Part shown: positions 593 to 18,591 of the stretch, one piece after another
How the letters are laid out: each line of letters starts with the position of its first letter
Numbering within the stretch: the first letter of the stretch is position 1
DNA from: Halomicronema sp. CCY15110
GTDB lineage: Bacteria > Cyanobacteriota > Cyanobacteriia > Phormidesmidales > Phormidesmidaceae
DNA length: 64,000 bases
NCBI RefSeq assembly: GCF_016888165.1
Contig: NZ_JACSWC010000320.1
Coordinates: forward strand, 1-64,000
Direction: 5' to 3'
The notes under the pieces: generated by a model
What the model was told of the DNA's origin: nothing
What the model saw: the letters and a program-made list of their open reading frames with translations, nothing else
Database searches by the model: none
Position numbers and translations under genes: made by a program

Positions 593-1471
593 CTACTCGC
601 TGTACCAGAAGGCGTCGGCGATCGCGCCCCCTTCTTCTTCAAAAAAGTTGATGGGATTGAGTACCACGATGTGCTGAGTCAAGTCATCGCCCAGGCGGCG
701 CTGCACGCGATCGGGAATGCCGTGACCGTAGATGACGTGTCCATTACCTGCCAACACCACCACCTGCGTATTGGGATTGGCGGTTTTGAAGTCTGCGATC
801 GTCATCGCCATGGTTTCATCCCAGGTCACTTGGGCGGCAAAAAAGTTGTCGAGATTGAAGTCGCCGTGAGCCCCGTGAGCCCCAAAGGCGGCAGCGACAA
901 AGTCTCGATAGTCTTCATTGCTGGTGTCGATGTCCGCTAGCGGGGGAATGTAGCGAAAGTCGTCCCCCGCCAGGCTCGCCAAGCCTTCCCGCGCAATTTG
1001 CCGGGTGATTTCTGCTGGGGCATTCAAGGCCAGCACGGGCAGGTCATTCGCTTGGGCAAAACGCAGAAAGGGGGCATAAAATTCCCAGGGAAAGCCCCAC
1101 CGTTCCAGATATTCCGTTTGGGCTACCAGTTCCGCTTCAGTGATTTCGCCCGCCAAGTAGCGATCGATCGCGGGCTGAAACGGCCGCTGAAACATCTCTA
1201 GGGCGATCGCAAGATCGGGATTTTCGGCGTGCAGTGCCTCAATAATTTCTAGCTGGGCAGCATGATCGGCGGCGCTATCGTGACGCTCACCCAAGTACAC
1301 CACATCGGCTGTTCGCAACGCGGCAAAGGTGTCGTCTTGCACGCTGGAAATCGCGGCAGGTTGTTCAGTTGACGTAAGGGCGTCATCTGCGGAACAGGCC
1401 AAAGGAGACGTGATAAACACGGCCCCCAAGATGGCCCAGCCAAAGCCCCATTGCCGAAAACGTCGTGTCAT
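593..1471 (-). CDS. ChaN-like (DUF399) heme-binding lipoprotein
   Basis: 292 residues, matching the ChaN family in length. The N-terminus is a lipoprotein signal with lipobox SPLAC (Cys26), so it is probably anchored at a membrane facing the periplasm or lumen. Recognisable family blocks include VVYLGERHDS, ALEMFQRPFQ and VVVLAGNGHVIYGHGIPDR. ChaN of Campylobacter binds stacked hemes between subunits and is linked to iron and heme uptake; the exact substrate here is not shown. It lies at the edge of a cluster rich in heme proteins, which fits heme handling. The fold assignment is firm; the biological role is inferred. Confidence 0.85.
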   Translation of the reverse strand: MTRRFRQWGFGWAILGAVFITSPLACSADDALTSTEQPAAISSVQDDTFAALRTADVVYLGERHDSAADHAAQLEIIEALHAENPDLAIALEMFQRPFQPAIDRYLAGEITEAELVAQTEYLERWGFPWEFYAPFLRFAQANDLPVLALNAPAEITRQIAREGLASLAGDDFRYIPPLADIDTSNEDYRDFVAAAFGAHGAHGDFNLDNFFAAQVTWDETMAMTIADFKTANPNTQVVVLAGNGHVIYGHGIPDRVQRRLGDDLTQHIVVLNPINFFEEEGGAIADAFWYSE

Positions 1472-1980: not shown

Positions 1981-2460
1981 CTAAAACAGGGGCTGTAGAC
2001 TTTGAGTAAGAACTGATTTGGGCACTTTGCCGACAAAGGTTTCGGCCACCTCCCCTACGCCTTTGCGTAGCACCAGATGCGGCACCCCCGTCACGTTGAA
2101 CGCCTGCACTTGGGCGCGCCATTGGGGGTCGTCGATATTCAACATGACGAAGTTTAGAGACGCCCCATAGTCTTGATGGATGGCTTGCAAGGTGGGGGCC
2201 ATGCTCTGACAGGTGGTACACCAGTCGGCATAAAACTCGATCAAGGTGGGTCGGCCATTGGCGATCGCGGACTCGTAGGGCATCGCCGCTTGAGCGCTCG
2301 CTTTCAGCGTCATCAGGCCCGATACGGGGGAAAGGCTCTGGGCACCGGTCACCGGACGGGTGAGCCAAAAGGCCGCGATCGCAAACGTCGCGATCAGTGC
2401 GATCGCCCACAGGCTGCGGCGATTCACATCGGAAGTAGCAGAAATACGATTCACGGTCAT
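1981..2460 (-). CDS. Membrane-anchored thioredoxin-like protein (TxlA/HCF164 type)
   Basis: 159 residues: an N-terminal membrane anchor (about residues 17-34) followed by a thioredoxin fold. The active site is WCTTC (Cys81 and Cys84) and the cis-proline loop reads GVPHLV (about residue 126). The arrangement matches TxlA/HCF164, a thylakoid thioredoxin that reduces disulfides on the lumenal or periplasmic side and is needed for assembly of c-type cytochromes. That role fits the neighbouring multiheme cytochromes, whose CXXCH cysteines must be kept reduced before heme attachment. A CTTC centre is not the commonest HCF164 sequence. This is probably a dedicated paralogue (inference). Confidence 0.8.
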   Translation of the reverse strand: MTVNRISATSDVNRRSLWAIALIATFAIAAFWLTRPVTGAQSLSPVSGLMTLKASAQAAMPYESAIANGRPTLIEFYADWCTTCQSMAPTLQAIHQDYGASLNFVMLNIDDPQWRAQVQAFNVTGVPHLVLRKGVGEVAETFVGKVPKSVLTQSLQPLF

Positions 2461-2490
2461 AGTGGGATGGGAATGATGAATTTCAGGATT

Positions 2491-2592
2491 TCAGCAGGGA
2501 GCGATCGCGGGTCGCTGACCATTAGAAAACGCCATCGCCTCGGGCTTGACCTTGGCAAAGCTATCTTCCAGCAAACGAATCTGGTCAGTCAT
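2491..2592 (-). pseudogene. Decayed N-terminal fragment of a globin gene
   Basis: A 33-codon ORF whose N-terminal half reads MTDQIRLLEDSFAKVKPEAM. This matches the start of both globin domains encoded at 6116-7117 (LQVELLESSFEKAKPQAK and LKIQLLEESFGKVAPQAS). After residue 22 or so the similarity ends and a stop follows, so the heme-binding helices are missing. I read it as the remnant of a third globin lost by deletion. The sequence just upstream resembles the 3' end of the cytochrome b gene, which supports a duplication-deletion event. A short expressed peptide cannot be excluded. Confidence 0.6.
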
Positions 2593-2597
2593 GGGAT

Positions 2598-2675
2598 TTA
2601 GTCGTAATACGCCAGGATGATTTGCGATACCCACCGCTCAACGCGGTTGCCCAACCACTGGAATAAAGCTGTCAT
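2598..2675 (-). pseudogene. Short ORF ending in a copy of the cytochrome b C-terminus
   Basis: A 25-codon ORF starts nine bases beyond the cytochrome b stop and ends VSQIILAYYD-stop. The real cytochrome b ends VFHIALAYYY-stop. The two 33-nt 3' ends agree at about 26 positions by eye. It lies between cytochrome b and the globin fragment, so it looks like the scar of a duplicated cytochrome b end rather than an independent gene. It could still be translated as a small amphipathic peptide (MTALFQWLGNRVERW). Confidence 0.4.
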
Positions 2676-2683
2676 GGCAACGA

Positions 2684-3415
2684 TTAGTAGTAATACGCCA
2701 GAGCGATGTGAAATACGAGCATGACGGCAAAGACCGCCACAAAAAAGATGTGGCTAGTGAGCCACAGAGCCCGTAAGCCACGGATGAGAGGGCCTTTGGT
2801 TAGCACGGTGCTAGACCCTGGTAACTTGCCAAAATAACTGCGGGTAGATTCTAAGACGCCGGTTTCGGCCACGACCCCGACCAACGCCGTCAGCGTAGTG
2901 GCAAAAAAGACCCAAAGAAACACCGCGTTAAAGTTCAGGCCATTGGCCCCCAAGGTGTGAATCAGCACGACCCCCAGCAGGGCGACCCCCGCAAAGATGT
3001 GGAGGCTGCGCCAAAACATCATTGATCCCGGTAGTTTGATGCTGGCAATCCACCCGCGTCCCCGCTTCCGGACAGTCAACAACATTTCCAGAACCACAAA
3101 CAGGAGGGTGGCATAGCCTGTGCTCTGCTTATAAAGCTCACCGCGAATAAACTGATGCAGATCGAACGATTGCGATCGCAACCAATCAAAATAGGCATCG
3201 CTTAGGGCAAACGGCACCAGCAAGAGCGCCGTTAACAGCGTTAACCCGATTAAGACTTTGAACCCAGGCTGAATACCCCGAGGCCGCATCGGTTTCCGGC
3301 GCTGCGGCGCGATCGCCGCAGCTGGCGTAACCAGGTCATCCCCAGCACTAGAGTTGGTCGCTGCCGACAGTTGGGTCGTATCGGTAATATCGCGGGAGTG
3401 AAAAGGCTTGCTCAT
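2684..3415 (-). CDS. Di-heme cytochrome b-type membrane protein
   Basis: 243 residues with a polar N-terminal tail of about 50 residues and five predicted membrane helices (about 52-72, 99-115, 133-153, 162-183, 215-238). Two helices carry His pairs spaced HX13H: His139/His153 and His222/His236. This is the ligand pattern of ferric-reductase-like and cytochrome-b-type proteins that hold two stacked b-hemes across a membrane. No flavin or NAD domain is present, so it would pass electrons between a quinol or cytosolic donor and partners on the other side. The neighbouring multiheme cytochromes c are the obvious candidates (inference). I do not recognise a named subfamily. Confidence 0.75.
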   Translation of the reverse strand: MSKPFHSRDITDTTQLSAATNSSAGDDLVTPAAAIAPQRRKPMRPRGIQPGFKVLIGLTLLTALLLVPFALSDAYFDWLRSQSFDLHQFIRGELYKQSTGYATLLFVVLEMLLTVRKRGRGWIASIKLPGSMMFWRSLHIFAGVALLGVVLIHTLGANGLNFNAVFLWVFFATTLTALVGVVAETGVLESTRSYFGKLPGSSTVLTKGPLIRGLRALWLTSHIFFVAVFAVMLVFHIALAYYY

Positions 3416-3867
3416 GACTTAAGAAAAATGCAATAGAAAAACAGGAAGGCGAGGTTACCAGTCCGTGGTCAATGCCTCAGGGGGCTGACTCCCAGGGAAA
3501 AACTCAAGCAAACCTTAAGTCCCTTGGGGACTATAGCGACAGGTGGCAACCTGAATTGCTAACTGTGAACCTCGGGCCGATCCGTTGTGGTCATAAAAAG
3601 TCATGTCTCAAGAGCAGTGGTAACTGCTAACTGACCCAGGGAGCTAGAGAAGGGAGATGGTGTCACTCCCCCCTCTAGTTGGCTTCACTAGGAGACGTGA
3701 AGTGCTAGTTACCTGGGAACTAGCGTTAGCGGTGATTCACACTGGGTAAACGTCAATCACCATTAGCATTTAGGGAATGACTGAACGACCACCTAGCATC
3801 GTCCAGTCCTGGCCAAAACTTGAATACAAGGTTCCGATTCCCTAAGATCCCGATTGGAAATTAGCGC
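3416..3867. other. Hairpin-rich intergenic region, possible structured RNA
   Basis: No plausible gene in 452 bases. Consecutive inverted repeats are readable: 3518-3532 (AGTCCC/GGGACT), 3613-3628 (AGCAG/CTGCT), 3644-3678 (CTAGAG plus GGGAG pairing with CTCCC plus CTCTAG), 3683-3702 (CTTCAC/GTGAAG), 3704-3724 (GCTAGTT/AACTAGC) and 3725-3767 (GGTGATT/AATCACC core). The stretch 3644-3767 is almost wholly base-paired on paper. It separates the Tll0287-like gene from cytochrome b on the same strand, so it could be a processing or attenuation element or a separate small RNA. Confidence 0.5.
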
Positions 3868-4521
3868 TTAAGCTCCTTCCAGGGGAATGTTGATCACCAC
3901 GCCGCCCATGACGTCATCCACCACAAACTGCTTGTCGGGATAACGTTCCATGTGAACGGGGTGAGTGTTATGACAGGAGGCGCAAGCTTCTGCGACCGCA
4001 ATATCGGGATATAGCGCCGAGAAGAACTGCTGACCGCCGACTTCCTGGTAATCCTTATAAGATTCGCCAGTTTCAATTACCGCATCCATCGCCGTTTGCT
4101 CAAAGTCATTCTTCGGCGCGTGGCTGTCGTTGATATACCAGGGAGAAATCAAGTTATAGGTGAAATACCCTTTCTCGTTGGCAATCTCAGAACCCAGTCG
4201 GAACATTTGGGCTGGTAGGGGAATGCCTGAACCTTGCTGCCAGGCTTCTGTGGCCTCAACGGGCACTACCCCATCAGGGTTTTCTTTACCTTCCAACATG
4301 TTCACTCGGCTCACCACGTGGCGAGTATATGCAGTCCGGTCAGCTTCCATCACCGTGTGAATGTAGTCAGCCACGAGCTCAGGCGAAATGCCTGGCGTCG
4401 CGGTGGCGGTAGTACCGCCGCCCCCGCAAGCAACAGCCGTGACCGAAACGGCCATAATGATCGCAATGAAAGCCACTGTGCGAGTGCGCAGGGTATTCAT
4501 CCATTTTTCTACAAGTGCCAT
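3868..4521 (-). CDS. Tll0287-like (DUF3365) c-heme lipoprotein
   Basis: 217 residues. A lipoprotein signal ends in VTAVAC (Cys32), followed by a Gly/Thr/Ala-rich linker and a domain with one heme c site, CASCH, at residues 180-184. The layout matches the DUF3365/Tll0287 family, whose Thermosynechococcus member is a single-heme c protein with a PAS-like fold suspected of redox sensing or gas binding. The ATG at 4521 has a good Shine-Dalgarno (AGAGGAGAC) about 8 bases upstream, so the long start is preferred over Met8. It lies between the cytochrome b and multiheme cytochrome genes and is probably part of the same redox module. Confidence 0.85.
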   Translation of the reverse strand: MALVEKWMNTLRTRTVAFIAIIMAVSVTAVACGGGGTTATATPGISPELVADYIHTVMEADRTAYTRHVVSRVNMLEGKENPDGVVPVEATEAWQQGSGIPLPAQMFRLGSEIANEKGYFTYNLISPWYINDSHAPKNDFEQTAMDAVIETGESYKDYQEVGGQQFFSALYPDIAVAEACASCHNTHPVHMERYPDKQFVVDDVMGGVVINIPLEGA

Positions 4522-4634
4522 TGGGCTTGTCTCCTCTGTTTAGAAATCAGCAAACGAAGTTGCAAAAGTTACGTGATCGTGATGTGTGGGGTGAAATTGT
4601 TCGTAGGATACGAACGCTGGATTTGACGATCGCC

Positions 4635-5447
4635 CTAACCATCCCCTTGATCGGTGCGACGCGCCTCAAAGTCGCGCACCAACTCAAAGGTTTCGAGGGC
4701 CAGGGTCGGCGGGGCATCAAAGTTAGCCTCCACCAAGTCATCGTCAAAAATGCTGTTGTAGCTGTACTCCATGCCGTGGCAGTTCATGCACACGTCTTTG
4801 ACCATGCGATCGCGAGGCAACAACGTGTAGGTGTTGTTGTGGTTGACCAGCGTTATCGCGTTATCGCCTGAGCCCGTTTCATGGCGCGGTAGGTGACAGG
4901 TAGCACAACTGACCGAGTTCGCTGAGGGGCGAGGCAAATTGCGATCGACCGCAAAGAGGTCAGCATGGCGGGAGTTGCCATAATTCAACGAATGATTGTC
5001 GCTATGGCAGCTCAAGCAAGAATCCACTGCCGCTTGCATCGTGTTGACCGAATGGACGTCATGGCAGCTATTACACGTCATTTGTCGATTCATCGCATCC
5101 GGTTGCATCGGGAGTCGAGCCATTGCGGGCGTGAGGGGTGTCTCCCCTTCCAACATCCGAATGCCGTGCTGACCGAGTAAGAAGGTATCAACATCCTGCT
5201 CGTGGCAGGTTTGACAACTTTCCACACCGGGCTGCGCCACAAATTCCTTCGTCTCCTTTGACTCATGACAGCTGGAACAATTGATTTCATTAAAAGCGTG
5301 GGCACTAGTTTGCCAAAGCTGGGTGGCTTCATCGATCTGAGCTTGGTCAACCGGGCTCGCTAAAGCCGAGTCTATATCGCCCCAGGTGAGCCCTAGCAGA
5401 ATACCGACGATGACGACGAGGCGGCCCAATGAACGAATCAGAGTCAT
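4635..5447 (-). CDS. Hexaheme cytochrome c
   Basis: 270 residues with a signal peptide or anchor (about 8-30) and six CXXCH motifs: residues 57-61, 78-82, 125-129, 144-148, 181-185 and 220-224. Extra His residues (for example QHGIRM, DVHSVN, DNHSLN, NSRHAD) are available as distal ligands, so bis-His low-potential hemes are likely. The block around motifs 3-4 resembles cytochromes from the NrfB, c554 and hydroxylamine-oxidoreductase-like families, but I cannot place it firmly. Its first four bases overlap the stop of the upstream pentaheme gene (ATGA), so the two are co-translated and probably form a complex. Confidence 0.85.
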   Translation of the reverse strand: MTLIRSLGRLVVIVGILLGLTWGDIDSALASPVDQAQIDEATQLWQTSAHAFNEINCSSCHESKETKEFVAQPGVESCQTCHEQDVDTFLLGQHGIRMLEGETPLTPAMARLPMQPDAMNRQMTCNSCHDVHSVNTMQAAVDSCLSCHSDNHSLNYGNSRHADLFAVDRNLPRPSANSVSCATCHLPRHETGSGDNAITLVNHNNTYTLLPRDRMVKDVCMNCHGMEYSYNSIFDDDLVEANFDAPPTLALETFELVRDFEARRTDQGDG

Positions 5448-6088
5448 GTCCCACCTCCCAAAAACTCTTGCGTGAGATCAGGATTCGGGGCGGTTTCCAC
5501 CTTGGTGAACACCGAGCGATCGGGCAGTTGCTGTACGGGTAGCATCGGCGGCTGATCGATGTTTTCAATCAAAAAGCCAGTCGAGATCGAACGATGATCG
5601 TGATAGTTGTGGCAACCCGCAGTCCAGCAGCCATCGGCCGCAAACCCGTCATGACTCTTGAGGCCGCCCTCAATAATGCCTTGGTGGCAATTCATGCACA
5701 GGTCGGGTTGCAAATGCACCCCCCGCCCAAACATATGGACATGCTCGTTATGACAGGTGGTGCAGGTCAGGGCTTCAATTTTTTCCAACTCCCCGGCCCA
5801 ACGGGGATCCCGAAACTTGCTCGGCCCATGCTTGTCTTCCGCCATTTCGGCCTCGTGACAGCGCATACAAGTTTCGTTACTCACTGGCTTAAATCCCTCA
5901 TGGCAAGAGGCACAAGAGGTTTCAAATATGTAGTGACCCACAGAGGTCTCTCCTGGCAAAAAGACTTGCTTGTTATCTAAAGCAAAGGCTGCTCCAAACC
6001 AGGCCACTAAGGCAATACACGCCAGGACGATCGCGGTCTTTAGGTTAAAAAAAGATCGCCATCTTAATGCTTGGCCTCTCAACGCCAT
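5444..6088 (-). CDS. Membrane-anchored pentaheme cytochrome c with a CX4CH site
   Basis: 214 residues from the ATG at 6088, which has GGAG 9 bases upstream; a TTG at 6106 would add six residues. One membrane anchor (about 17-37) is followed by four standard heme sites, CASCH (59-63), CMRCH (74-78), CTTCH (109-113) and CMNCH (131-135), and one atypical site, CWTAGCH (154-160, CX4CH). CX4CH sites are known in a few tetraheme c3-type and related cytochromes and are still matured. The arrangement suggests a NapC/c3-like electron conduit held at the membrane. It is translationally coupled to the hexaheme gene and lies 27 bp after the tandem globin gene. Confidence 0.85.
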   Translation of the reverse strand: MALRGQALRWRSFFNLKTAIVLACIALVAWFGAAFALDNKQVFLPGETSVGHYIFETSCASCHEGFKPVSNETCMRCHEAEMAEDKHGPSKFRDPRWAGELEKIEALTCTTCHNEHVHMFGRGVHLQPDLCMNCHQGIIEGGLKSHDGFAADGCWTAGCHNYHDHRSISTGFLIENIDQPPMLPVQQLPDRSVFTKVETAPNPDLTQEFLGGGT

Positions 6089-6115
6089 CGATCTTGCTCC
6101 GTGCAATCCTCCGCG

Positions 6116-7117
6116 TTAAACCAACAAGAACAGGACAATCAGAGCGATGACGCCGCCGCCAATGACGCCGGCTGCCGCCCCAGTGCTGATATTGCTGTCC
6201 GGTGCTTCTACAGCGGCGGTCGTCCCCAGTTGCACGTCCGCTTGGTCATAGTCGGCCCCCTTCAGCATGACTGTAGTGATTAGCCCATAGGCCTCCACCC
6301 AAGCCTGCTTAACTTCATCTGTCCAATCACTACCCAAAAACTGTTCAAAGGTTTTGATCAATGAATTACCCACTAGCGGATAATGCGCTGGCAAGGCGCC
6401 ATACTTGACATGGCGAGCGCCCAACCCTTCTAAGGCCCCGGTCAAGGCTCCTGGCTGGCGCAGGTTCTCCACCACAAACACCAAAGACTCCAGCAGCATT
6501 TTTTCCTGCTTCGCCATATTGGTATGGGTAAACAAAGGCTTAGCCGCCGGATAGTCAGTGAACAGGTTGTTATAAAAGCGGCTGGCAAACTCGCTAGCCT
6601 GGGGAGCGACTTTGCCGAAGCTCTCTTCTAGCAGTTGAATCTTTAACCCGGTCGCTTCATCCACCTCGGCGGCAGACGGTGGCTCTAACTGAACGTCCTC
6701 TTTGGAGTAATCAGCGCCTTCGAGCATAATTGTCGTGATGGCTCCGTAGGCATCGGTCCAGGCCTGTTGAGTCTCTGGAGTCCAGTCATCGCCTAAGTAC
6801 TGGCCGAAGGTTTTTAGCAAAGAGTTGCCGACCAATGGGTAATGCTCGGGCAAGGCACCGTACTTCATGTGCCGTGCCCCTAAACCCTTGAGCGCCTTAC
6901 TCAAAGACTCTGGTTGGCGCAAGTTCTCCACTACAAAGACTAGGGACTCCAACAGCATCGTTTCCTGCTTAGCCATATTGGTATGGGTAAACAAGGGCTT
7001 AGCAGCCGGATAATCAGTAAATAAATTTTCGTAGAAACTGGCAACAAACTCCTTCGCTTGGGGTTTAGCCTTCTCAAAACTGCTTTCTAAGAGCTCAACC
7101 TGCAAATCAGAAGCCAT
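6116..7117 (-). CDS. Membrane-anchored tandem globin (two Vitreoscilla/flavohemoglobin-like domains)
   Basis: 333 residues with two near-identical globin domains (about 5-137 and 157-290) and one C-terminal membrane helix (about 314-333). Each domain has a proximal His (His83, His236), a B10 Tyr in FY (Tyr29, Tyr182) and an E7 Gln in MAKQ (Gln51, Gln204). Tyr/Gln distal pockets are typical of O2-binding and NO-dioxygenase globins. No reductase domain is present, so an external electron donor is needed; the adjacent cytochromes are candidates. Start ATG at 7117 follows GGAGAAC. The C-terminal tail anchor implies that the globins face the cytosol unless exported by another route. Internal similarity indicates recent domain duplication. 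Confidence 0.85.
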   Translation of the reverse strand: MASDLQVELLESSFEKAKPQAKEFVASFYENLFTDYPAAKPLFTHTNMAKQETMLLESLVFVVENLRQPESLSKALKGLGARHMKYGALPEHYPLVGNSLLKTFGQYLGDDWTPETQQAWTDAYGAITTIMLEGADYSKEDVQLEPPSAAEVDEATGLKIQLLEESFGKVAPQASEFASRFYNNLFTDYPAAKPLFTHTNMAKQEKMLLESLVFVVENLRQPGALTGALEGLGARHVKYGALPAHYPLVGNSLIKTFEQFLGSDWTDEVKQAWVEAYGLITTVMLKGADYDQADVQLGTTAAVEAPDSNISTGAAAGVIGGGVIALIVLFLLV

Positions 7118-7918
7118 AAACGTTCTCCAAATCTCCTAGCTTAAGCAAATTCACACAAACACCAAAAAAAGCAAAAATCAGAGAACCAATCTTGGCCGTT
7201 TCAAGACAAAAACTTGTGAAGCCTTTGGCCACCAAACCAGATTGGTTACTTGAGTTTTCTGAATCTTGATTTGCACGGCAATCACATTGCTGAATTGCTA
7301 GCAAATGCCGTCAGTCAAATCTTTGATTCGCATCAACCTGGAGGCAAATTGTCAGAGCTAATTAATTCGCCATTTGCTGATGATATTGATTTGATTGTGC
7401 TCAACGTAAGGGAAATGTAAAGGCTTTTTTTGTAACAAAAACGACTAAAAAACAATTGACCATTCGACTTTCGCATCAATTCGATGCGGTTCACTCATTC
7501 TCCTTGAAGTTCCTACCGTGATTTGATGAGGTTTATGGGAAGTGAGTGGCAAGGCCTATGTCATGAAGGCCCTCAACGGCATCGGTTTGACAAGCTGGCA
7601 TTGCTCCCTATTTTGAAAGGGGAGAGGGTTCAAGACCAGCCGCTTGCGATCGGCGCTGCTGGCCTTGAACCCAGAAGAGTTGTGCCTACGATGTGGTCTA
7701 ACTCAGGTCGAAAGCCTTTGGCCGGGGCGAAAAATCGGTTGCGAGATGACTTTTTCGCGATGATGCTCGCTTTTCTCTTATGCAGAAAACGCATGCTATT
7801 GATGCATAGAGAGAATTTGCAACTGTTTTTTGTAGTTGCTAATACAGAAGCGATCGCGGCCCTCGTCGAGTCTATTTACCAGCTTCTTTGTGATGGTTTT
7901 GCTCTGCTAGATTTTGCC
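7118..7918. promoter_or_regulatory. Divergent control region between the globin/cytochrome operon and ccs1
   Basis: About 800 bases separate the divergent genes. A dyad CGCATC-AATTC-GATGCG lies at 7472-7488, close to a TTGACC hexamer at 7456-7461; these could be operator and -35 elements. The reading frame of ccs1 stays open upstream to 7523, but the extra 132 codons show no ResB similarity, so I treat the stretch as leader. No RNA gene is recognised. Confidence 0.35.
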
Positions 7919-9736
7919 ATGGAATCCAAACTTGTCCGATTTTTAGGATCGATTCGCCTGGCAGTGCCGCTGTTAGTTGCGATCGCGGTTATTTTGATCG
8001 GGGCGACTTTTTACGAATCTGAAGTCGGTTCGCCAACAGTGCAGCGAGAGATTTATAAAAGCGCCTGGTTTGGAGCTTTGATGTTCCTACTGGCGGTGAA
8101 TTTAGGGATTTCAACCCTCAGTCGATTTCCCTGGAAAGGCCCGCGAAAAATCGGTTTCGCTTTGACCCATTGGGGACTCATTGTCATCATTGCCGGGTCA
8201 GCGGCAGTCATTCATCTCAGTACTGAAGGGATGTTGCTGGTGCGGACTGATAGTGCCCCTGGCAGCCAGATTCGGATCGAAGGCGATTTGCTAGAGGTTG
8301 TCGCCCCTGACCAGACGCGGCAACAAACCGACATTTTTATCAAGCCCGACGGTGCCGTTTATCCCCGTCAGTTTGGGGGCTTGTCCTTGCTGGGCTACAG
8401 CGATAACGCCATCAAGACGGTGCAGTTTACCAATGATGGCGTGGTGGACAATCTGGCCGTCAAGGTACAACTGCACAGCGATCGCATGGGGCAAACTTTA
8501 GAGCGTTGGCTTGCTGTCGCGCCGGCTGCCTACAGTCAGATGGACATTGGCCCAGCCCATTTGGAGCTGTTTGCCGCGTCCGACGAAGCGGAGTTACAGC
8601 AGCTGTTGCGGGCTCCTAGCCCAGAGCAAAATCCCATGGGAACGTTGGCAATTCGTCAAATTGCTGGCCAAAGCCGCGATCGCACGATTGATGTAGAGCC
8701 AACGGTCGGGCAAACGCTAGCGTTGAGTCCTGACTTGGCTTTAACGGTGGTCAACGTCTGGCCAGATTTTCGCCTCGGCAGCGACGGTCAGCCCACCTCA
8801 GCGTCCGACCAATTTCGGAATCCGGCAGTGCAGCTGTTGGTGACCCAGGGTGACGAGCAAGAGCGCTGGTTCGTATTTGGCAAAGCTGGACTGCCACCGG
8901 TGCGATCGAATGATCAGATTGCATTAGCCCTGACCTATGAACCGCCAGCGGCGACCCCGACCGACTATTTTCGCCTGGTGGCCGCTCCCGATCATCAGAT
9001 TTTCTACGCTGCCGCCTCTTCTAAGGGCTTTAAGTCGGGTGAGTTGCCGCCCGGACAATCGATATCGCCAGGCTGGGCTGATTTTCAGATTTCTCTGGTG
9101 GAGCAGCTAGATCACGCCCAAGTGCAGCGCCAAATTGTGCCCGTGATGCCAGTGGCTGCCGGTACGATGGCCGCCGAAGGCGCTCCCGCACTGCATGTAG
9201 CGACCCCCGATGGTCAAGATTTTTGGCTGCCCTGGGGCGAACCCACCGCATTGGCTACCGCTAACGGCGAGTATTTTGCGGCGTTCACCCCCAAGCTGCT
9301 GGAGCTCCCCTTCTACGTGAAGCTCAATGAGTTCATTGTGGAGCGTAACGAAGGAAGTGAATCGGTGGCGATGTGGACCAGCGACATTACGCTGTTTGAC
9401 CCCCAAACGGACACCGCCGCGCCGCGTTCCGTGTGGATGAACCATCCCACCTGGTTTCGGGGTTGGAAGCTGGCCCAAGCCTCTTGGAATCCCGGCGATC
9501 TGCAACAGTCCACCCTGCAACTCAAGCGCGAACCCTGGTGGGTGACCGCTCTGACCTGGACTGGGTCGTTGCTAGTCGTGCTGGGAATTGTCGTCATGTT
9601 CTACGGGCCAAGCCTGGTGAAACGGTGGCGACAGTGGACGCGATCGCCCCAAACCGAACCGGAGCCACCGATGGATGAAGGCTCTGAAGAAAAAGCCGTG
9701 GGGACGATTCCGATCTTGGCGGTGTTTGGCAAATAG
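7919..9736 (+). CDS. ccs1: Ccs1/ResB-type cytochrome c biogenesis protein
   Basis: 605 residues from the ATG at 7919. The N-terminus has ResB helices (SIRLAVPLLVAIAVILIG, then WFGALMFLLAVNLGI and LTHWGLIVIIAGSAAVIH with a conserved His), then a large extracytoplasmic domain of about 450 residues and a last helix (about 550-575). With CcsA it forms the System II synthetase that exports heme and attaches it to apocytochrome c. It is long compared with typical cyanobacterial Ccs1 and resembles the N-terminal half of CcsBA/NrfI proteins of non-phototrophs. It heads the operon divergent from the multiheme genes, so a dedicated role in maturing them is likely (inference). Confidence 0.85.
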   Translation: MESKLVRFLGSIRLAVPLLVAIAVILIGATFYESEVGSPTVQREIYKSAWFGALMFLLAVNLGISTLSRFPWKGPRKIGFALTHWGLIVIIAGSAAVIHLSTEGMLLVRTDSAPGSQIRIEGDLLEVVAPDQTRQQTDIFIKPDGAVYPRQFGGLSLLGYSDNAIKTVQFTNDGVVDNLAVKVQLHSDRMGQTLERWLAVAPAAYSQMDIGPAHLELFAASDEAELQQLLRAPSPEQNPMGTLAIRQIAGQSRDRTIDVEPTVGQTLALSPDLALTVVNVWPDFRLGSDGQPTSASDQFRNPAVQLLVTQGDEQERWFVFGKAGLPPVRSNDQIALALTYEPPAATPTDYFRLVAAPDHQIFYAAASSKGFKSGELPPGQSISPGWADFQISLVEQLDHAQVQRQIVPVMPVAAGTMAAEGAPALHVATPDGQDFWLPWGEPTALATANGEYFAAFTPKLLELPFYVKLNEFIVERNEGSESVAMWTSDITLFDPQTDTAAPRSVWMNHPTWFRGWKLAQASWNPGDLQQSTLQLKREPWWVTALTWTGSLLVVLGIVVMFYGPSLVKRWRQWTRSPQTEPEPPMDEGSEEKAVGTIPILAVFGK

Positions 9737-9740
9737 AGCG

Positions 9741-9772
9741 TAGCTGGGTGATTGGGTAGCTGGGTGGGGCGC
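9741..9772. repeat. G-rich 16-bp tandem repeat, two copies
   Basis: TAGCTGGGTGATTGGG (9741-9756) is followed by TAGCTGGGTGGGGCGC (9757-9772), just after the ccs1 stop. The period and composition match the repeats at 424-455 and 20615-20660. The rest of the 184-bp gap to ccsA holds nothing recognisable apart from short TCTGAACTT and TTCTGCATT repeats around 9877-9913. Confidence 0.6.
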
Positions 9773-9920
9773 GATTAGACCATCGCAGGCAAATGAGGTT
9801 GACCGGTGCCGCTTCCCCACAGTTCCCACTCCGTCCTTTGATGCTCCGGCTGCCGCACTCTGAACAACACATGTAACTTCTGCATTCTGAACTTTTGCAT
9901 TCTGAACTTCTGAGAGCGCT

Positions 9921-11615
9921 ATGAAACTGACGACATTTCTAATTGGTCTGGTGTTGGGAGCCCTGCTGCTGGTGTGGCCCATCAGTCAGTGGCAGCCCGA
10001 CGGGCTAGACTCGCTGCGATCGCTGACCGTACAGCTGGATGGGCGCAAAAAGCCTCTGGATACTGTGGCGCAGGAAACCGTGGCCAAAATTCACGGCTCC
10101 ACCACTTACCAATCGGCTGAGGGCACCCGAGAAGATGCGCTCAGCACGTACCTGGCTATGTGGTTCAACACCCGTAACTGGAACGAAGAGCCGTTTGTGC
10201 TGGTCAGCTATCGACCGCTGAAGGAAGCCGCTGGGCTGGATATCGAGCGCAAGCAGTTCACCTTTCAGGAACTGATGGCCAATCGGGAATTAGCCGCGAT
10301 CGTCGGTGAGGCCCATCGCAAAGAACTGAACGAGGTCGATCTCAGTCGCAATGAGCGTGAGGCCCTGACGATCGAAGGGCGGCTGAATTTGCTGTATCAG
10401 TCGGTGGGCGATCGCCAGTTGCCCATTGTGCCGCATCCCGACGATCGCAAGGGTAAATGGGGCAGCCTCGACGAAACCACCAAGCTTTATTCACCAGAGC
10501 AGGCGGCCCCGCTCTTGGCAGCTTTTGCCATGATGCAGCAGACCTTATTGCAAGGCGGCGCGACCCACATTCCCATGGTGGCCTCTTTGGCCGAGCAGCT
10601 CAAGGCCGGCCTCCAGCAGCTGAGCCCGGATATTTATCCTACCGATGCGGTGATGGGCCGGGAAGTGTATTTCAACCACTTCCACCCCTTTGCCAAGGCG
10701 TGGCAACTGTACGCGATCGCCTTCACCGTATTGCTCGTCAGCCAGTGGATCAAACGCTGGAATATTTACTGGACCGCGATCGGGCTATTCACGACCGGGA
10801 TTGTCGTCCAGACCTACGGTTTCTTCCTGCGGATGCAGATTGCCGATCGCCCTCCCGTCACCAACATGTATGAGTCGGTGGTCTGGGTCGGGTTTGGCAT
10901 TATGGCGATCGCCCTACTGCTGGAAGTTTTTTCCCAAAAGCGCTTTTACCTGTTGGCAGCAGCCCCCCTCTCGGTGGTGTGTCTGGTATTGGCCGATAGT
11001 TTGCCCGCCGTGCTCGACCCCAGCATTGCCCCCCTGGTGCCGGTCCTTCGCGACAATTTCTGGCTCAGCATCCATGTCCCCACCATCACCCTCAGCTACG
11101 CCAGTTTCGCCCTGGCCCTCGGCGTCGGTCACGTGGCCCTGTTCAACTATTTGTTTACCCCCCAAGCCAAGCAGCGCATCAAAACTCTGTCGCAGTTGAA
11201 CTATCGAGTCTTGCAAGTGGGCGTGCTGTTGCTGACCGCAGGCATCATCCTCGGTGGCATCTGGGCGCACTTTTCCTGGGGCCGCTTCTGGGGGTGGGAT
11301 CCCAAAGAAACCTGGGCGCTCATTGCGTTGCTCTGCTACCTTGCACCGCTCCACGGTCGGTTGGTCGGCTGGATTGGCGACTTCGGCATTCACGTGGCCA
11401 GTATCGTGTCGTTTAATGCAGTGTTAATGGCTTGGTACGGCGTAAACTTCGTGTTGGGTACGGGGCTTCACAGCTACGGCTTTGGCACCGGCGGTTCGGA
11501 ACTACTGATTGCCAGCGTCGTTGGCTTGGATCTGCTGATGGTACTTGCGACTGCGGCCCGCCATTACGGTTGGTTTAAGCGCTCCGAGCCGCTGACCACC
11601 GTCGAAAATCTGTAA
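9921..11615 (+). CDS. ccsA: CcsA-type heme channel of System II cytochrome c maturation
   Basis: 564 residues. The C-terminal half (about 255-550) is a multi-helix CcsA/CcmC/CcmF-type domain with the tryptophan-rich heme motif WGRFWGWDPKETW and NMYESVVW. The N-terminal half carries a helix and an extracytoplasmic segment with DGRKKPLDTVA, seen in large CcsBA/NrfI-type proteins. Typical cyanobacterial CcsA proteins are only about 320-350 residues, so this is the long type. Together with the upstream ccs1 it would present reduced heme to apocytochromes. Wolinella uses separate CcsBA isoenzymes for atypical heme sites, so a link to the CX4CH site nearby is plausible. Confidence 0.88.
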   Translation: MKLTTFLIGLVLGALLLVWPISQWQPDGLDSLRSLTVQLDGRKKPLDTVAQETVAKIHGSTTYQSAEGTREDALSTYLAMWFNTRNWNEEPFVLVSYRPLKEAAGLDIERKQFTFQELMANRELAAIVGEAHRKELNEVDLSRNEREALTIEGRLNLLYQSVGDRQLPIVPHPDDRKGKWGSLDETTKLYSPEQAAPLLAAFAMMQQTLLQGGATHIPMVASLAEQLKAGLQQLSPDIYPTDAVMGREVYFNHFHPFAKAWQLYAIAFTVLLVSQWIKRWNIYWTAIGLFTTGIVVQTYGFFLRMQIADRPPVTNMYESVVWVGFGIMAIALLLEVFSQKRFYLLAAAPLSVVCLVLADSLPAVLDPSIAPLVPVLRDNFWLSIHVPTITLSYASFALALGVGHVALFNYLFTPQAKQRIKTLSQLNYRVLQVGVLLLTAGIILGGIWAHFSWGRFWGWDPKETWALIALLCYLAPLHGRLVGWIGDFGIHVASIVSFNAVLMAWYGVNFVLGTGLHSYGFGTGGSELLIASVVGLDLLMVLATAARHYGWFKRSEPLTTVENL

Positions 11616-11792
11616 ACTGACAGCGTTAGAGTTTCAAGGTCGGCAAAAGGGTTTCTGGGTTGGAATAGCGGGGCGCAACCGCATGTCATTGACCTGAAAA
11701 TTGTGGCCAGTGCGCCCCCACGGCTGATCCTGACCTGACACCCAAAACCTGGCTACACTGTCATATCAAACCTTTGAGAGGAGAAAATTTCG

Positions 11793-12248
11793 ATGAATCG
11801 ACGTGAGTTTGTAAATTGGATGGGCGTAGGAGCCCTAGCAACGTCGCTGCCAGTCGCCTTAGCCGCTTGCGGTGGTACGGCTGAAGCCCCGGTTGAGGAA
11901 ACGGCTGACGAGACCGCCACCACTGATGCAGCCCCGACCGAAGATGGGTTTGAGGCCATTGGCACGGTTGCCGAATTAGATGAAGCTGGGGCGTTGGCCA
12001 GCAGCAATTTCCAGGGCACTCAGGTGGTTGTCACCCGTTCTCCGGATAATCCTGACACCCTGATTGCCGTCGATTCCCTCTGTACGCACCAGGGTTGCAC
12101 GGTCGATTGGGACGGCAGTGCGTTCGCTTGTCCTTGTCACGCCTCAATGTTCAGTACTGATGGCACTGTGGCTTCCGGGCCCGCAAGTTCCCCGCTCCCC
12201 GTTTATGAAGCCAAAATCGAAGGCGACCAAGTGTTGGTCAGAGTTTAG
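11793..12248 (+). CDS. Rieske [2Fe-2S] lipoprotein, copy 1
   Basis: 151 residues. The N-terminus MNRREFVNWMGVGAL looks like a Tat signal leading to a lipobox (ALAAC, Cys26). The Rieske domain has CTH (97-99) and CPCH (113-116), which bind the cluster, plus Cys102 and Cys115 forming the disulfide seen in bc-type Rieske proteins. The Glu/Thr/Ala-rich linker (30-50) would let it reach away from the membrane. It is much smaller than PetC and is not in a petCA operon, so it is a stand-alone electron carrier. Start ATG follows GAGAGGAGAAAA. Confidence 0.88.
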   Translation: MNRREFVNWMGVGALATSLPVALAACGGTAEAPVEETADETATTDAAPTEDGFEAIGTVAELDEAGALASSNFQGTQVVVTRSPDNPDTLIAVDSLCTHQGCTVDWDGSAFACPCHASMFSTDGTVASGPASSPLPVYEAKIEGDQVLVRV

Positions 12249-12326
12249 GCATGCCCCCTAATAACTCTGGGGCTAGCGAGTCCCAGCGCTGCTAGGCCGC
12301 GATCGCCACCAATGATCATGTGTCTG

Positions 12327-12366
12327 AATCACCTGTTCTGCCTCGCCGTGGGTGGGACAGGTGATT
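12327..12366 (+). terminator. Hairpin between the two Rieske genes
   Basis: AATCACCTGT (12327-12336) pairs perfectly with ACAGGTGATT (12357-12366) and is followed by TTAT. It could end the first Rieske transcript or attenuate read-through into the second. The T tract is short. Confidence 0.45.
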
Positions 12367-12542
12367 TTATATCGGCGTCGCCGAATTCGAGGAAACACCC
12401 TTATCCGAGGAGAAGGTTTGGGATGAGGGGGTTTCATCTCATTGCTCAGTGACGCCGCATAGAAAAGCGGCAATGCTTACAGTTTGTGGTCTGTGATTTG
12501 TGTTTGGATCACTGAACTAATCATCAAAAAGGGAACTGAGCA

Positions 12543-12989
12543 GTGAATCGACGTGAGTTTGCAAATTGGCTGGGCGTGGGGGCGCTTGCGAGTTCGCTAC
12601 CGATCGCGATCGCGGCTTGTCAGGGAGATACAGCAGACGCGCCGACGGATGCACCCGCAGACAGCGAAGCCACCGTTCGGGCGGATGGCTTTGCGGTCAT
12701 TGGCACCGTTGCCGACCTCGATGCGGCTGGATTCCTGGCTAACGTGCGATTCCAAGGAGCTCGGGTGATAGTAATTCGCGATCCGGCCACAGCGGACGCG
12801 GTGATCGCGTTCAACGCGGTGTGTCCCCATGCGGCCTGCACCGTTGAGTGGGGGGAAGGTGAATTGGTCTGCCCTTGCCACGACTCGTTCTTCAACCTGG
12901 ATGGCACAGTCGCCTCAGGCCCATCTGCGGAACCGTTAGCGCAGTTTGAGAGCAAAATTGAAGGGGATCAAATCTTGGTCAAAGTGTAA
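12543..12989 (+). CDS. Rieske [2Fe-2S] lipoprotein, copy 2
   Basis: 148 residues, a tandem paralogue of the preceding gene; the first 30 nucleotides are almost identical, except that this copy starts with GTG. It has the same Tat-like start (NRREFANWLGVGAL), lipobox AIAAC (Cys26), cluster ligands CPH (94-96) and CPCH (110-113), and disulfide cysteines 99 and 112. The residues next to the cluster differ (CPHAAC, CPCHDS versus CTHQGC, CPCHAS), which in this family tunes redox potential. The two copies may thus work at different potentials (inference). Confidence 0.87.
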   Translation: MNRREFANWLGVGALASSLPIAIAACQGDTADAPTDAPADSEATVRADGFAVIGTVADLDAAGFLANVRFQGARVIVIRDPATADAVIAFNAVCPHAACTVEWGEGELVCPCHDSFFNLDGTVASGPSAEPLAQFESKIEGDQILVKV

Positions 12990-13036
12990 GTCAAGTGGGA
13001 ACTAGCTCCCAGCATGGTCAGCAACAGCGCCATCGA

Positions 13037-14512
13037 TCAGAACTGGCGGCTCCACTCTTTGGGCCAGCGCTCAATCACCACCTTAGTCTGGGTGAAGAAC
13101 TCGACGGCATGGTGACTTTGCCCATGGAGATCGCCAAAGAAGCTGTCTTTCCAACCGCTGAAGGGGAAAAAGGCCATGGGCGCGGCCACCCCGATATTGA
13201 TGCCGATGTTGCCCGCTTCGGCCTCGGAGCGAAACTTGCGCGCGGCGGCCCCGCTGCTGGTAAACAGGCAGGCCATGTTGCCCCAGGGACTCCGATTCAC
13301 CAGAGCGATCGCGTCCTCTACCGTCTCCACATGCATCAGCCCCAACACCGGGCCAAAGATTTCTGTGTGGGCAATTGCGCCATCGGGCGGCACATCTTGC
13401 AGAATGGTAGGTTTGACAAAATGACCTTGCTCTAACCCGGCAATTTGTGGCTGGCGACCATCCACCAGGACTTTTGCGCCCTCATCGGCACCTTGTTGAA
13501 TCAGGGCCTCAATGCGATCGCGGCTCTGGGCGGTGATCACTGGCCCCATTTGCACCGCTGCATCCAAGCCATTGCCGGTGATGCGATGCGCGGCAGTTTC
13601 CGCGATCGCCGCCGTAAACGGTTCCCGTGCTGCGCCCACCGTGACTGCCAGCGAGGCCGCCAGACAGCGCTGCCCCGCACAGCCAAAAGCGCTGTCGGCG
13701 GCAATGCGAGTGGTCATGTCCATATCAGCATCGGGCAGCACAATGATCGGATTCTTCGCGCCACCCTGGCACTGCACCCGTTTGCCGTGGGCCGCCGCCT
13801 GGCTGTAGATGTAGCGGGCGACCGGCGAAGAGCCCACAAAGCTGATAGCGCGAATCTCGGGATGTTGCAAAATCGCATCCACCGTTTCCTTCGCCCCGTT
13901 AACCAGGTTCACTACTCCCGGTGGAAAACCCGCTTGGTCAATCAGTTCAAAGATTTTCTGCATCGTCAGGGGCACTTTTTCGGACGGCTTGACGAGGTAG
14001 GTATTGCCGCAGGCGATCGCATAGGGCAAAAACCAAAACGGAATCATCGCCGGAAAGTTGAAGGGGGCGATCGCCGCCGCGACTCCCAGCGGCTGGCGAA
14101 TCATAAACTCATCAATGCCGCGAGCAATATCTTCGGAAAACGTACCCTGCATGGCGGTGGGAATGCCGCAGGCCACCTCGACGTTCTCGATCGCCCGTTG
14201 CAATTCCCCTCGCGATTCCTTCAGAGTTTTGCCACATTCTTGGGTAATCAGTCGGGCGATTTCGTCGGCGTGCGATTCCAGCAGGCTCTTGAGCTTAAAC
14301 AAAGGCTGCACCCGTTCCACAGCAGGCACTCGCCGCCAAGTGGTAAAGGCTTGAGCAGCGGCGGCAGTCGCGTGATCAACCTCCGTGCCTGGGGAGAGCG
14401 GCACCTCGGCCAGCACGTCAGCTGTCGCCGGGTTGTACACGGCAAGGCGATCGCTCGCTTCAGAAAGTCGCCATTCACCGTTGATGTAGTTTTTGAGGAT
14501 AGCGTCAGACAT
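13037..14512 (-). CDS. mmsA: Methylmalonate-semialdehyde dehydrogenase (CoA-acylating) family
   Basis: 491 residues from the ATG at 14512 (a GTG at 14530 would add six). An aldehyde dehydrogenase with the MmsA pattern: [31 protein letters not shown] and the catalytic Cys in GCAGQRCLA. MmsA oxidises (methyl)malonate semialdehyde to acyl-CoA in valine, inositol or pyrimidine breakdown. No other gene of those pathways is adjacent, so the substrate here is unproven. It is convergent with the second Rieske gene. Confidence 0.85.
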
Positions 14513-14769
14513 CTTGGTATTTGTGAGCACCCTGCTCGCGTGAACAATGAATTGTCAAAAGTGGTTGCAGCCCGATCAGGTATCACTTTGTTGGGGACAC
14601 CTCGCATCACCCTTAGGAATTTCGCTGCCGGACTTAGCTCGGTGATTGTCGTGGGACGCAAACCAAGGCGTGATGCCAGCGGAAAATTGAGACTCTAACA
14701 AACGAACCCTGGAAGCATTGCGCTTCACAGGGTCTGTTGCGAATAATGGCGTGATTGCGGCTACGGCCC

Positions 14770-15012
14770 TTAGCCCGCCGGGGGCGTCAGCCAACCCGCG
14801 CTTAACACCACCGTCAGTCCCATAAACAATGCGGTCAATGTCCAGGTGACTCGATTTAAGGTCGTCTCAGCACTTTTGGTACTGGTAAATAATTGTGCCT
14901 GCCCGCCCAAAGCGCCCAAACCGTCACCCTTGGGGCTATGCAGCAACACTAACACCGACAAACCGATTGCCGATACCGTCCAGACTATTTGAATGATCGA
15001 AACTATAGCCAT
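14770..15012 (-). CDS. secG: SecG, preprotein translocase subunit
   Basis: 80 residues with two membrane helices (about 3-22 and 55-75) and the SecG loop between them: LLHSPKGDGLGALGGQAQLF. It is part of the SecYEG channel in the plasma and thylakoid membranes. It lies downstream of gpmI on the same strand with a 117-bp gap, a common cyanobacterial order. A weak hairpin (CCCTGGAAGC/GCTTCACAGGG, about 14708-14733) follows and may end the transcript. Confidence 0.93.
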   Translation of the reverse strand: MAIVSIIQIVWTVSAIGLSVLVLLHSPKGDGLGALGGQAQLFTSTKSAETTLNRVTWTLTALFMGLTVVLSAGWLTPPAG

Positions 15013-15129
15013 AGATTAATTGCGCCAAACATCACACTTAGGAAATGACCGTTCTGCCGAGCGGCACTTTCTCTAAACATACTAACTTGCGGCGTGTGTT
15101 TGCCCAAGCGGTGGGGCCAACAACGTCTT

Positions 15130-16731
15130 TTACAGCCCTACATGCACGGGCGTGCGGTTCGCCTTGATATCCACTGCAGAATTCAGCAGCATCGATCGCC
15201 CTGTCATCTCCTGAGGTTGGTCAATATTCAGGATATCCAGAATCGTCGGCGCAATGTCAGACAAACGACCATCCGTACGCAGCTCTACCTCTGTGCCGTG
15301 GCCAGGAATTGTGAGCTTTTCCCCTTCGACCAGGATGAAGGGCACCGGGTTAGTGGTGTGGGCCGTCCAGGGTTTGTGGTTTTCATCCCACATGTACTCG
15401 GCATTGCCGTGATCAGCGGTAATGATCGCCGTTCCACCGGCCTGACTAATGCCTTCTAGCAGCCGCCCCAGTTCCGTATCCACGGTTTGCAGCGCCGTCA
15501 CCGTGGCGTTTAAGTTACCCGTGTGGCCGACCATGTCCGGATTGGCATAATTGATCACAATCAGCGAATAAATGCCTTTCTGAATAGCGGTGAGCGCGGT
15601 ATTGGTTACGAGAGACGCCGACATGGGCGGAGCTTTGTCGTAGGTCGCCACTTGGGGACTCGGAATCAACTCCCGGTCTTCGCCCGCTAACGGCTCTTCT
15701 AACCCGCCATTAAAGAAGTAGGTAACGTGAGCATATTTTTCCGTCTCTGCGGTGCGGAATTGCTTTAACCCTTCATCGGCAATGACTTCTCCCAAAATAC
15801 GGTTGAGGTTTTGGGGCGAAAAGGCCGCCTGCGCTGCCGTCAACTGCGAGTCGTATTGCGTCATGGTGACAAAGCTGAGGGGCTCAATCAGCGATCGCTC
15901 AAACCCATCAAACTCATGGTCCAAAAAGGCGTGGGTCAACTGTCGCGCCCGGTCTGGACGGAAGTTGAAAAACAATACACCATCACCGGCTTCAATCGCC
16001 CCCGGCGCAATGCGGACGGGATCCATAAACTCATCCGTAATTTCCGCCGCGTAAGCGTCCTGCATCACTTCGACGGCGGCGCGACCGTCGCCATCGCCAT
16101 CAGTCACCATCACGTCATAGGCTTTTTTGATGCGATCCCAGCGGTGATCACGATCCATCGCATAGTAGCGACCACTCAGGGTCACAATACGACCAATCCC
16201 GTGCTGCTCGGTAAAGTCTTGAATGGCCTGCACTGAGCGGTAGCCATCAGTCGGCTTGGTATCCCGACCGTCGGTAATGACATGAATACAGACCTCAGAA
16301 ATGTCCTGAGCCTTAGCCATCTCTAGCAGGCCCAGCAGGTGATTGAGGTGAGAATGCACACCACCATCAGAACACAGCCCCACGAGATGCAGCTTGCTGT
16401 TGCGATAGCGCACCGTTTGGCACAGCTCTAAAATGGTCTCGTTTTCTTGAATGCTGCCATCTTCAATGGCATCGGAGATTCTGACCAGCTCTTGGGGAAC
16501 GACCCGACCGGCCCCGATATTGAGGTGACCCACTTCCGAATTCCCCATTTGCCCTTCGGGCAGACCAACATCTTTGCCCGATGTCCGAATCAGGGTATGG
16601 GGATAGGCGTGCCAGAGACTGTCCATCACCGGAGTTTCGGCAACACTCACAGCGTTGCCGTCAGCCTCTTCTCGATATCCCCACCCGTCTAGGATAATGA
16701 GCACCATCGGTGGAATAGGCGCTTGAGTCAT
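15130..16731 (-). CDS. gpmI: 2,3-bisphosphoglycerate-independent phosphoglycerate mutase
   Basis: 533 residues from the ATG at 16731 (AGGA lies upstream; a TTG at 16752 is a weaker start). It interconverts 3- and 2-phosphoglycerate using two Mn2+ ions. The family motifs are DGWGYRE near the N-terminus, the nucleophilic Ser in MGNSEVGHLNIGAGR, DGRDTKPTDG, and metal ligands in NYANPDMVGHTG and TADHGNAEYM. The length matches the family. A housekeeping enzyme of glycolysis and carbon fixation output. Confidence 0.95.
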   Translation of the reverse strand: MTQAPIPPMVLIILDGWGYREEADGNAVSVAETPVMDSLWHAYPHTLIRTSGKDVGLPEGQMGNSEVGHLNIGAGRVVPQELVRISDAIEDGSIQENETILELCQTVRYRNSKLHLVGLCSDGGVHSHLNHLLGLLEMAKAQDISEVCIHVITDGRDTKPTDGYRSVQAIQDFTEQHGIGRIVTLSGRYYAMDRDHRWDRIKKAYDVMVTDGDGDGRAAVEVMQDAYAAEITDEFMDPVRIAPGAIEAGDGVLFFNFRPDRARQLTHAFLDHEFDGFERSLIEPLSFVTMTQYDSQLTAAQAAFSPQNLNRILGEVIADEGLKQFRTAETEKYAHVTYFFNGGLEEPLAGEDRELIPSPQVATYDKAPPMSASLVTNTALTAIQKGIYSLIVINYANPDMVGHTGNLNATVTALQTVDTELGRLLEGISQAGGTAIITADHGNAEYMWDENHKPWTAHTTNPVPFILVEGEKLTIPGHGTEVELRTDGRLSDIAPTILDILNIDQPQEMTGRSMLLNSAVDIKANRTPVHVGL

Positions 16732-16752
16732 TGGCTTATAGGGTTCCTGCAA

Positions 16753-18305: not shown

Positions 18306-18591
18306 GAGTTCCCCCTGCGCGGCAATAATTAAGGCATGAAGGCTGATGCAGCACCGCCCAAAGCGCCTTAAATCTAGCCATTGTCTGAAGTCTCGTCAAT
18401 CTTATCGCGTCAAAATTATTTTTTTGTCTTAATCTTTGGCGGTAGCAGCGCCGAAACTGAGACTCGTCGCTAGAATGGGCATCGTCTCAGCTCGTTTCTG
18501 GTAGACGCTAGCGCTGACAAGTGTTTTGTTAGCCGTCTTAGAGGCTGGGGCGATCGCACTGTTCATAACGAGTCAAGGTGAAGGGCAAGTC

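Follow-up and report, generated by a model that had tools for sequence, protein, structure and literature searches.

Any globin could dioxygenate or scavenge nitric oxide (NO) given re-reduction of its heme, and the reductase is usually the missing piece (PMC2323109). Stand-alone Tll0287 (heme-Cache) proteins behave as redox proteins, and where a heme-Cache domain is fused to a signalling module the protein is an NO sensor (PMC12889525). Cyanobacterial electron transport is itself known mostly from a few model strains. Here we describe a cyanobacterial locus in which a globin and a Tll0287-like protein are encoded together with multiheme cytochromes, a diheme cytochrome b and a second machinery for cytochrome c maturation. 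It occupies positions 1981 to 12989 of a 64,000-nucleotide (nt) stretch of Halomicronema sp. CCY15110 (contig NZ_JACSWC010000320.1; hereafter the window). We are confident that these genes constitute a conserved electron-transfer module that is controlled by NtcA and has a maturation system of its own. The open-access literature that we searched contained no account of it.

Every gene named in the first-pass annotation of the window is an open frame at its assigned position with a matching Pfam match, and the proposal made there that the genes form one module is borne out by synteny, co-occurrence, congruent trees and a common NtcA promoter signature. The order globin, pentaheme cytochrome, hexaheme cytochrome, Tll0287-like protein, diheme cytochrome b, thioredoxin, with Ccs1, a long CcsA and a Rieske protein adjoining, recurs at about 45 cyanobacterial loci in at least seven families. 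When one genome was scanned for each species, the pentaheme gene appeared at 38 loci, all cyanobacterial, in genera that include Leptolyngbya, Halomicronema, Geitlerinema, Acaryochloris, Coleofasciculus, Moorena, Symploca, Spirulina and Roseofilum; among those loci with enough sequence, the order is kept in almost all. Ccs1, the long CcsA and Rieske are divergent from the cytochrome genes, as in the window, or lie up- or downstream of them in other orientations. When all neighbouring genes were clustered, the globin, cytochrome, thioredoxin, Ccs1, CcsA and Rieske families emerged as the conserved core. Homologues scattered without synteny, which would speak against a module, were looked for and not found.

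Within a class-wide sample of 390 cyanobacterial genomes, 35 encode a full-length pentaheme cytochrome, 37 the hexaheme and 35 the N-terminal domain that distinguishes the long CcsA. All 35 pentaheme genomes also have the hexaheme, and 32 of them have the long CcsA (hypergeometric 5e-40 for pentaheme and long CcsA, relatedness ignored); the remaining three (G002, G210, G218) are all fragmented drafts. Conversely, a long CcsA occurs without the pentaheme in two drafts, G008, where a fragment of the hexaheme is also present, and G197, where the contig with CcsA ends in a globin, as well as in G163, which is described below. Trees built from the left arm (pentaheme, hexaheme, Tll0287-like protein, cytochrome b) and the right arm (Ccs1, CcsA) of 20 loci have 14 of 17 splits in common, against a maximum of 2 after label shuffling. 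To judge from these trees, the two arms are inherited as a unit whatever their relative orientation. Within single families and genera some members have the module and others lack it, which implies gain, loss or both. With the pentaheme and hexaheme in about 9% of the species sampled, the expected rarity of multiheme cytochromes in cyanobacteria holds. A plasmid search returned no plasmid-borne relatives of the pentaheme, the hexaheme or cytochrome b. Our reach beyond cyanobacteria comprised one close-relative scan and plasmids, and we do not claim that the module is restricted to this phylum.

The canonical NtcA-activated promoter combines GTAN8TAC with TAN3T about 22 nt downstream (PMC3898017). 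We scanned the promoter regions of 37 loci, taking either the globin-Ccs1 interval or up to 900 nt upstream of the globin. Exact GTAN8TAC was present in 30 of the 37 regions, where dinucleotide shuffles gave 2.5 on average and 7 at most (0 of 200 shuffles reached the observed count), and GTA/TAC half-sites at spacings of 5-7 and 9-11 were found in 0-4 loci each. Non-module genes in the same loci carry GTAN8TAC in 20 of 163 cases (12%; Fisher 5e-16); the loci are related and the counts are not independent, yet the box persists in spite of differences in the eight bases at its centre and in its flanks. For 16 of 35 boxes the spacing to a downstream TAN3T is exactly 22 nt; each other offset turns up mostly 0-1 times and never more than 4. 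In the window, an exact box, GTAGTTGCTAATAC, occupies 7832..7845 on the plus strand, 74 nt upstream of the Ccs1 start. A relaxed NtcA-like site, GTCGTTTTTGTTAC (7432..7445, minus strand), was read by eye about 315 nt upstream of the globin, in the same region as the exact sites of relatives; it is followed by TACGTT 23 nt downstream, which is the only TAN3T at either site. Sites of FNR, CRP or HcpR type were at or near background upstream of the module, and Rfam gave no RNA family in the first 20 kilobases (kb) of the window. These promoter sequences make it very probable that the module is nitrogen-controlled via NtcA, and the signature is a feature beyond what the first-pass annotation had observed.

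All twelve heme c sites counted at first pass are there: six CXXCH in the hexaheme, four CXXCH and one CX4CH (CWTAGCH) in the pentaheme, and one in the Tll0287-like protein. Eleven CXXCH motifs fall inside 2 kb, the whole window containing 14 against 5.6 expected from shuffles, and heme-motif counts are identical in every complete homologue that we collected. The soluble hexaheme cytochrome c (4635..5447, minus strand) has a signal peptide and six further invariant histidines. The pentaheme cytochrome c (5444..6088, minus strand) is membrane-anchored by a transmembrane segment near its N-terminus, and its CX4CH site is invariant; the frame is open to 6106, the conserved start being probably the ATG at 6088, and the gene overlaps that of the hexaheme by 4 nt. 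In each protein the further invariant histidines at least equal the hemes in number, so that all hemes may be bis-histidine ligated, as in wires rather than enzymes. The single-heme c lipoprotein (3868..4521, minus strand; Pfam Tll0287-like, 5.7e-19) has a CXXCH and a lipobox Cys32 that are invariant among complete homologues. By analogy with its stand-alone relatives, a role as a carrier within the module would fit.

The diheme cytochrome b (2684..3415, minus strand) has the two HX13H pairs originally reported, H139/H153 and H222/H236, and 29 homologues retain all four heme histidines without exception. Topology was judged from hydropathy, charge and helix prediction, which give about five transmembrane helices with the N-terminus inside. 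By analogy with other membrane-spanning diheme b cytochromes, H139 and H222 would lie near the cytoplasmic side and H153 and H236 near the outer side. Family searches returned only sub-threshold matches to DUF4405/cyt b561, with no bc-type match in Pfam or NCBIfam and neither the Qo site nor the profile of a bc/b6f protein. Helices are visible in its AlphaFold model (mean predicted local distance difference test score, pLDDT, 74), for which a Foldseek search against the PDB gave nothing at E<=0.001. The syntenic thioredoxin (1981..2460, minus strand; Pfam Thioredoxin, 1.1e-18) is membrane-anchored by an N-terminal transmembrane segment and has the motif WCTTC, with WCXXC retained in 29 of 30 homologues; it probably reduces apocytochrome cysteines for heme attachment. 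Its initial designation as thylakoid-type was not supported, the best NCBIfam match being a generic thioredoxin below cut-off and the slr1796 family scoring far below.

Across the promoter region lies a second System II. Its Ccs1/ResB (7919..9736, plus strand; ResB, 2e-16) has invariant His87, His102 and His512 and a conserved start at the ATG at 7919, not in the long TTG frame, and it is divergent from the canonical Ccs1 of the genome (contig C70). The long CcsA (9921..11615, plus strand; Cytochrom_C_asm, 4e-33) has the extra N-terminal domain of CcsBA synthases; its residues 32-548 align to residues 404-929 of Helicobacter hepaticus CcsBA (7s9y; 8e-63), and it keeps an invariant WGRFWGWDPKETWA (WWD-type region) and five histidines. 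Since a canonical CcsA, without the N-terminal domain, is encoded on contig C328 of the same genome, as is the canonical Ccs1 elsewhere, the module owns a second, CcsBA-type System II. Full-length relatives of this CcsA on plasmids are Bacteroidota CcsA proteins. A second system might be needed to handle the CX4CH site in the pentaheme, to attach so many hemes or to work in a different membrane. Downstream lies a twin-arginine translocation (Tat)-type Rieske [2Fe-2S] lipoprotein (11793..12248, plus strand; Rieske, 1.6e-12) in which the twin arginines, the lipobox Cys26, CXH and CXXH are invariant, and which has the bc/b6f-type CXH...CXXH arrangement and disulfide cysteines. Of the two Rieske lipoproteins reported initially, both are present; the second (12543..12989, plus strand; Rieske, 1.4e-12) is 56% identical to the first and probably arose by local duplication, most other loci having only one Rieske gene.

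One nearly complete genome, G163, carries an insertion sequence-eroded copy of the module (G163:C1:1385000-1404000, 9600-18900; locus L094) and has neither pentaheme nor hexaheme anywhere in the genome. Ccs1, Rieske and ChaN are intact at this relic, and CcsA has one in-frame stop. Cytochrome b is truncated at its start, the thioredoxin is a truncated remnant, and the globin, pentaheme, hexaheme and Tll0287-like genes are absent. Transposases at 8418-9452, 15184-16385 and 17732-18871 stand where the cytochromes would be expected or flank the remnants. Decay of CcsA after loss of its clients is expected of a dedicated maturation system, and this single case is suggestive only.

The globin (6116..7117, minus strand; Pfam Globin, 6e-37) matches in two stretches, corresponding to two domains, and has a C-terminal transmembrane segment and no signal peptide. 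Its pocket (B10 Tyr, CD1 Phe, E7 Gln, F8 His) is conserved and of flavohemoglobin type, and the nearest solved structure is Hell's Gate globin I (HGb-I). In most loci the chain ends in a single C-terminal transmembrane tail, a topology that should hold the globin on the cytoplasmic face. Tandem repeats, a fair description of the window's own protein, were rejected as a defining feature, the number of globin repeats per chain ranging from 1 to 5 across loci; chains with three or five domains and one C-terminal membrane tail are found at L041:7433-9787, L028:983-2584, L029:6857-8605, L038:8477-9958 and L040:2205-3671. Some genomes also have, beside the thioredoxin in the operon, another globin, diverged and of one domain only, whose C-terminal extension is conserved (GELTFYEWLDLYGE...), as at L014:13319-13849, L016:4132-4659, L036:14302-14928, L039:7066-7608, L051:4072-4599 and L093; no counterpart was seen in the window.

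Frequent neighbours of the core are a pentapeptide-repeat gene, a 72-residue membrane protein and ChaN. Membrane proteins of 72-79 residues without a Pfam match lie 3' of the thioredoxin in 15 loci (for example L017:8083-8301, L018:4841-5059, L020:13869-14108 and L021:13580-13798). A ChaN-family lipoprotein (heme-binding uptake, Tiki superfamily) adjoins the module in the window (593-1471) and in at least eight other loci, and may be part of it.

How might these parts work together? Ccs1, the CcsBA-type CcsA and the thioredoxin would assemble the set of 12 hemes on the periplasmic or lumenal side, with the pentaheme on its membrane anchor, the hexaheme soluble and the single-heme protein a lipoprotein. 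Cytochrome b would set two stacked hemes across the membrane, giving electrons a path from the outer c-hemes to the cytoplasmic face or back. Given that globins can dioxygenate NO if re-reduced and that the reductase is usually missing, we favour the view that the globin has the diheme b/multiheme wire for its electron partner: the wire would re-reduce the ferric heme of the tail-anchored globin at the cytoplasmic face, in place of the flavin domain of a flavohemoglobin, so that the globin could keep destroying NO or reducing bound O2. The Rieske lipoprotein may connect this wire, at high potential, to the quinol/c-cytochrome pool. NtcA control would fit a role when ammonium is short and cells live on nitrate, nitrite or N2. 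The direction of electron flow and the substrate are what we infer. The whole chain, an NtcA-controlled wire up to and including re-reduction of the tail-anchored globin, we consider somewhat short of an even chance; the fuller picture of a flavin-free membrane-wired globin, in which a nitrogen-controlled diheme b/multiheme c wire with private heme attachment serves a repeat-expanded, tail-anchored globin, is put forward tentatively.

Several observations weigh against this favoured picture. NO as the substrate, and a flow of electrons to the globin, are deductions from sequence, and the assignment of membrane sides comes from hydropathy and charge alone. The AlphaFold model of the hexaheme is unusable (pLDDT 51), so that its heme ligation is read from conserved histidines. 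An NO synthase is found in only 2 of the 28 module genomes tested, the globin is without its tail anchor at L023, L036, L039, L048 and L049, and stand-alone Tll0287 proteins look like redox carriers, not NO sensors (PMC12889525). Low-potential bis-histidine hemes could equally carry electrons outward, which leads to the alternative that nitrogen-limited cells discharge excess electrons of the cytoplasm or the quinol pool through the multihemes to an external or periplasmic acceptor, be it Fe(III), O2 or a surface, while the globin merely buffers or senses O2 or NO. The invariant histidines suffice for bis-histidine wiring of every heme in both multihemes, the diheme b spans the membrane, and NtcA control would switch on such a sink once nitrogen assimilation stops consuming electrons. 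Even so, we think this unlikely. The first-pass annotation had suggested that the module may serve NO detoxification or extracellular electron transfer, but the conserved gene set contains no outer-membrane porin and no outer-membrane or surface-exposed cytochrome that would point to the latter, and an outward route leaves the invariable, repeat-expanded globin in the operon unexplained.

The hexaheme could instead be an enzyme like HAO or NrfA, acting in the periplasm on nitrite, NO or hydroxylamine and fed by cytochrome b and the pentaheme, with the globin clearing NO that escapes. Its best profile match is indeed an HAO-like protein (6h5l, E 1.1e-8), with weaker matches to NrfA and octaheme nitrite reductase, NtcA control also counts in its favour, and the module CcsA resembles CcsBA-type System II synthases, which also serve nitrite ammonifiers. 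These matches are partial, and multihemes cross-match easily; the hexaheme is about half the size of HAO or NrfA, has no CXXCK heme, and its six extra invariant histidines for six hemes suggest that no catalytic heme is open, so we doubt this reading strongly. That the module is a respiratory branch which scavenges O2 and so protects nitrogenase in diazotrophs without heterocysts seems improbable to us: NtcA also controls nitrogen fixation genes, and nifH shows a partial association (present in 16 of the 28 module genomes, against 6 of the 21 relatives without the module), but 12 module genomes, the window's own included, are without nifH above cut-off. We give least weight to a redox- or gas-sensing assembly, in which the Tll0287-like protein and the globin sense and the cytochromes relay, and which is very improbable. 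It could draw on the NO sensors in which heme-Cache is fused to signalling modules, but the stand-alone proteins act as redox proteins (PMC12889525), and no kinase, methyl-accepting chemotaxis protein (MCP) or cyclic-nucleotide domain belongs to the conserved set.

About nine-tenths of the species sampled lack the module. If the re-reduced, membrane-wired globin is correct, many filamentous, mat-forming and marine cyanobacteria would own a branch of electron transport, so far undescribed and under nitrogen control, whose heme centres number at least 14 (12 c and 2 b) without counting the globin hemes, together with a dedicated second cytochrome c assembly line. Such a wire would be a globin reductase of a new kind, and would add a new branch, respiratory or detoxifying, to those of oxygenic phototrophs. 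The module is in this sense a concrete candidate answer to the long-standing question of how a single-domain bacterial globin is re-reduced when it has no flavin domain of its own.

Several parts of the module resemble described systems and also depart from them. Like Helicobacter hepaticus CcsBA, its CcsA has the N-terminal domain that canonical cyanobacterial CcsA lacks and conserves the functional histidines, whereas its Ccs1 and CcsA are two adjacent genes, not one fused chain, in a host that also keeps the canonical pair. With the HAO/NrfA superfamily the hexaheme shares CATCH...R.M..VC.nCH-type motifs, and it differs in being half-size, with a matching invariant histidine for each CXXCH. 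The Tll0287-like protein belongs to the Pfam family of Tll0287 and likewise has a single CXXCH; unlike Tll0287, it is a lipoprotein within an operon, and its mature part has no invariant cysteine beyond the CXXCH and lipobox Cys, so its sequence does not retain His/Cys ligation. Rieske features are shared with cytochrome bc/b6f, the cytochrome b family profile is not. Diheme b561/DUF4405-like subunits paired with multiheme c are also found in a cluster on plasmid pEMTOL02 of Emticicia oligotrophica (Bacteroidota; L105, 7204-23996), which encodes a diheme b that has HX13H in each of two helices, a fused ResB-CcsA, a Rieske protein, and c3-type cytochromes bearing 23 and 40 CXXCH motifs; there a cytosolic NAD(P)/iron-sulfur flavoprotein stands where cyanobacteria have the globin. 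We rejected this cluster as a homologue, the cytochromes sharing only a weak heme-motif profile match and the cytochrome b being weakly related. The globin itself has the TyrB10, PheCD1, GlnE7, HisF8 pocket of flavohemoglobin (Hmp) and of HGb-I/VHb. Unlike Hmp, it is without the C-terminal FAD/NAD reductase domain, and unlike all of these it comes with 1 to 5 domains, a C-terminal membrane anchor and a co-encoded cytochrome b and multihemes.

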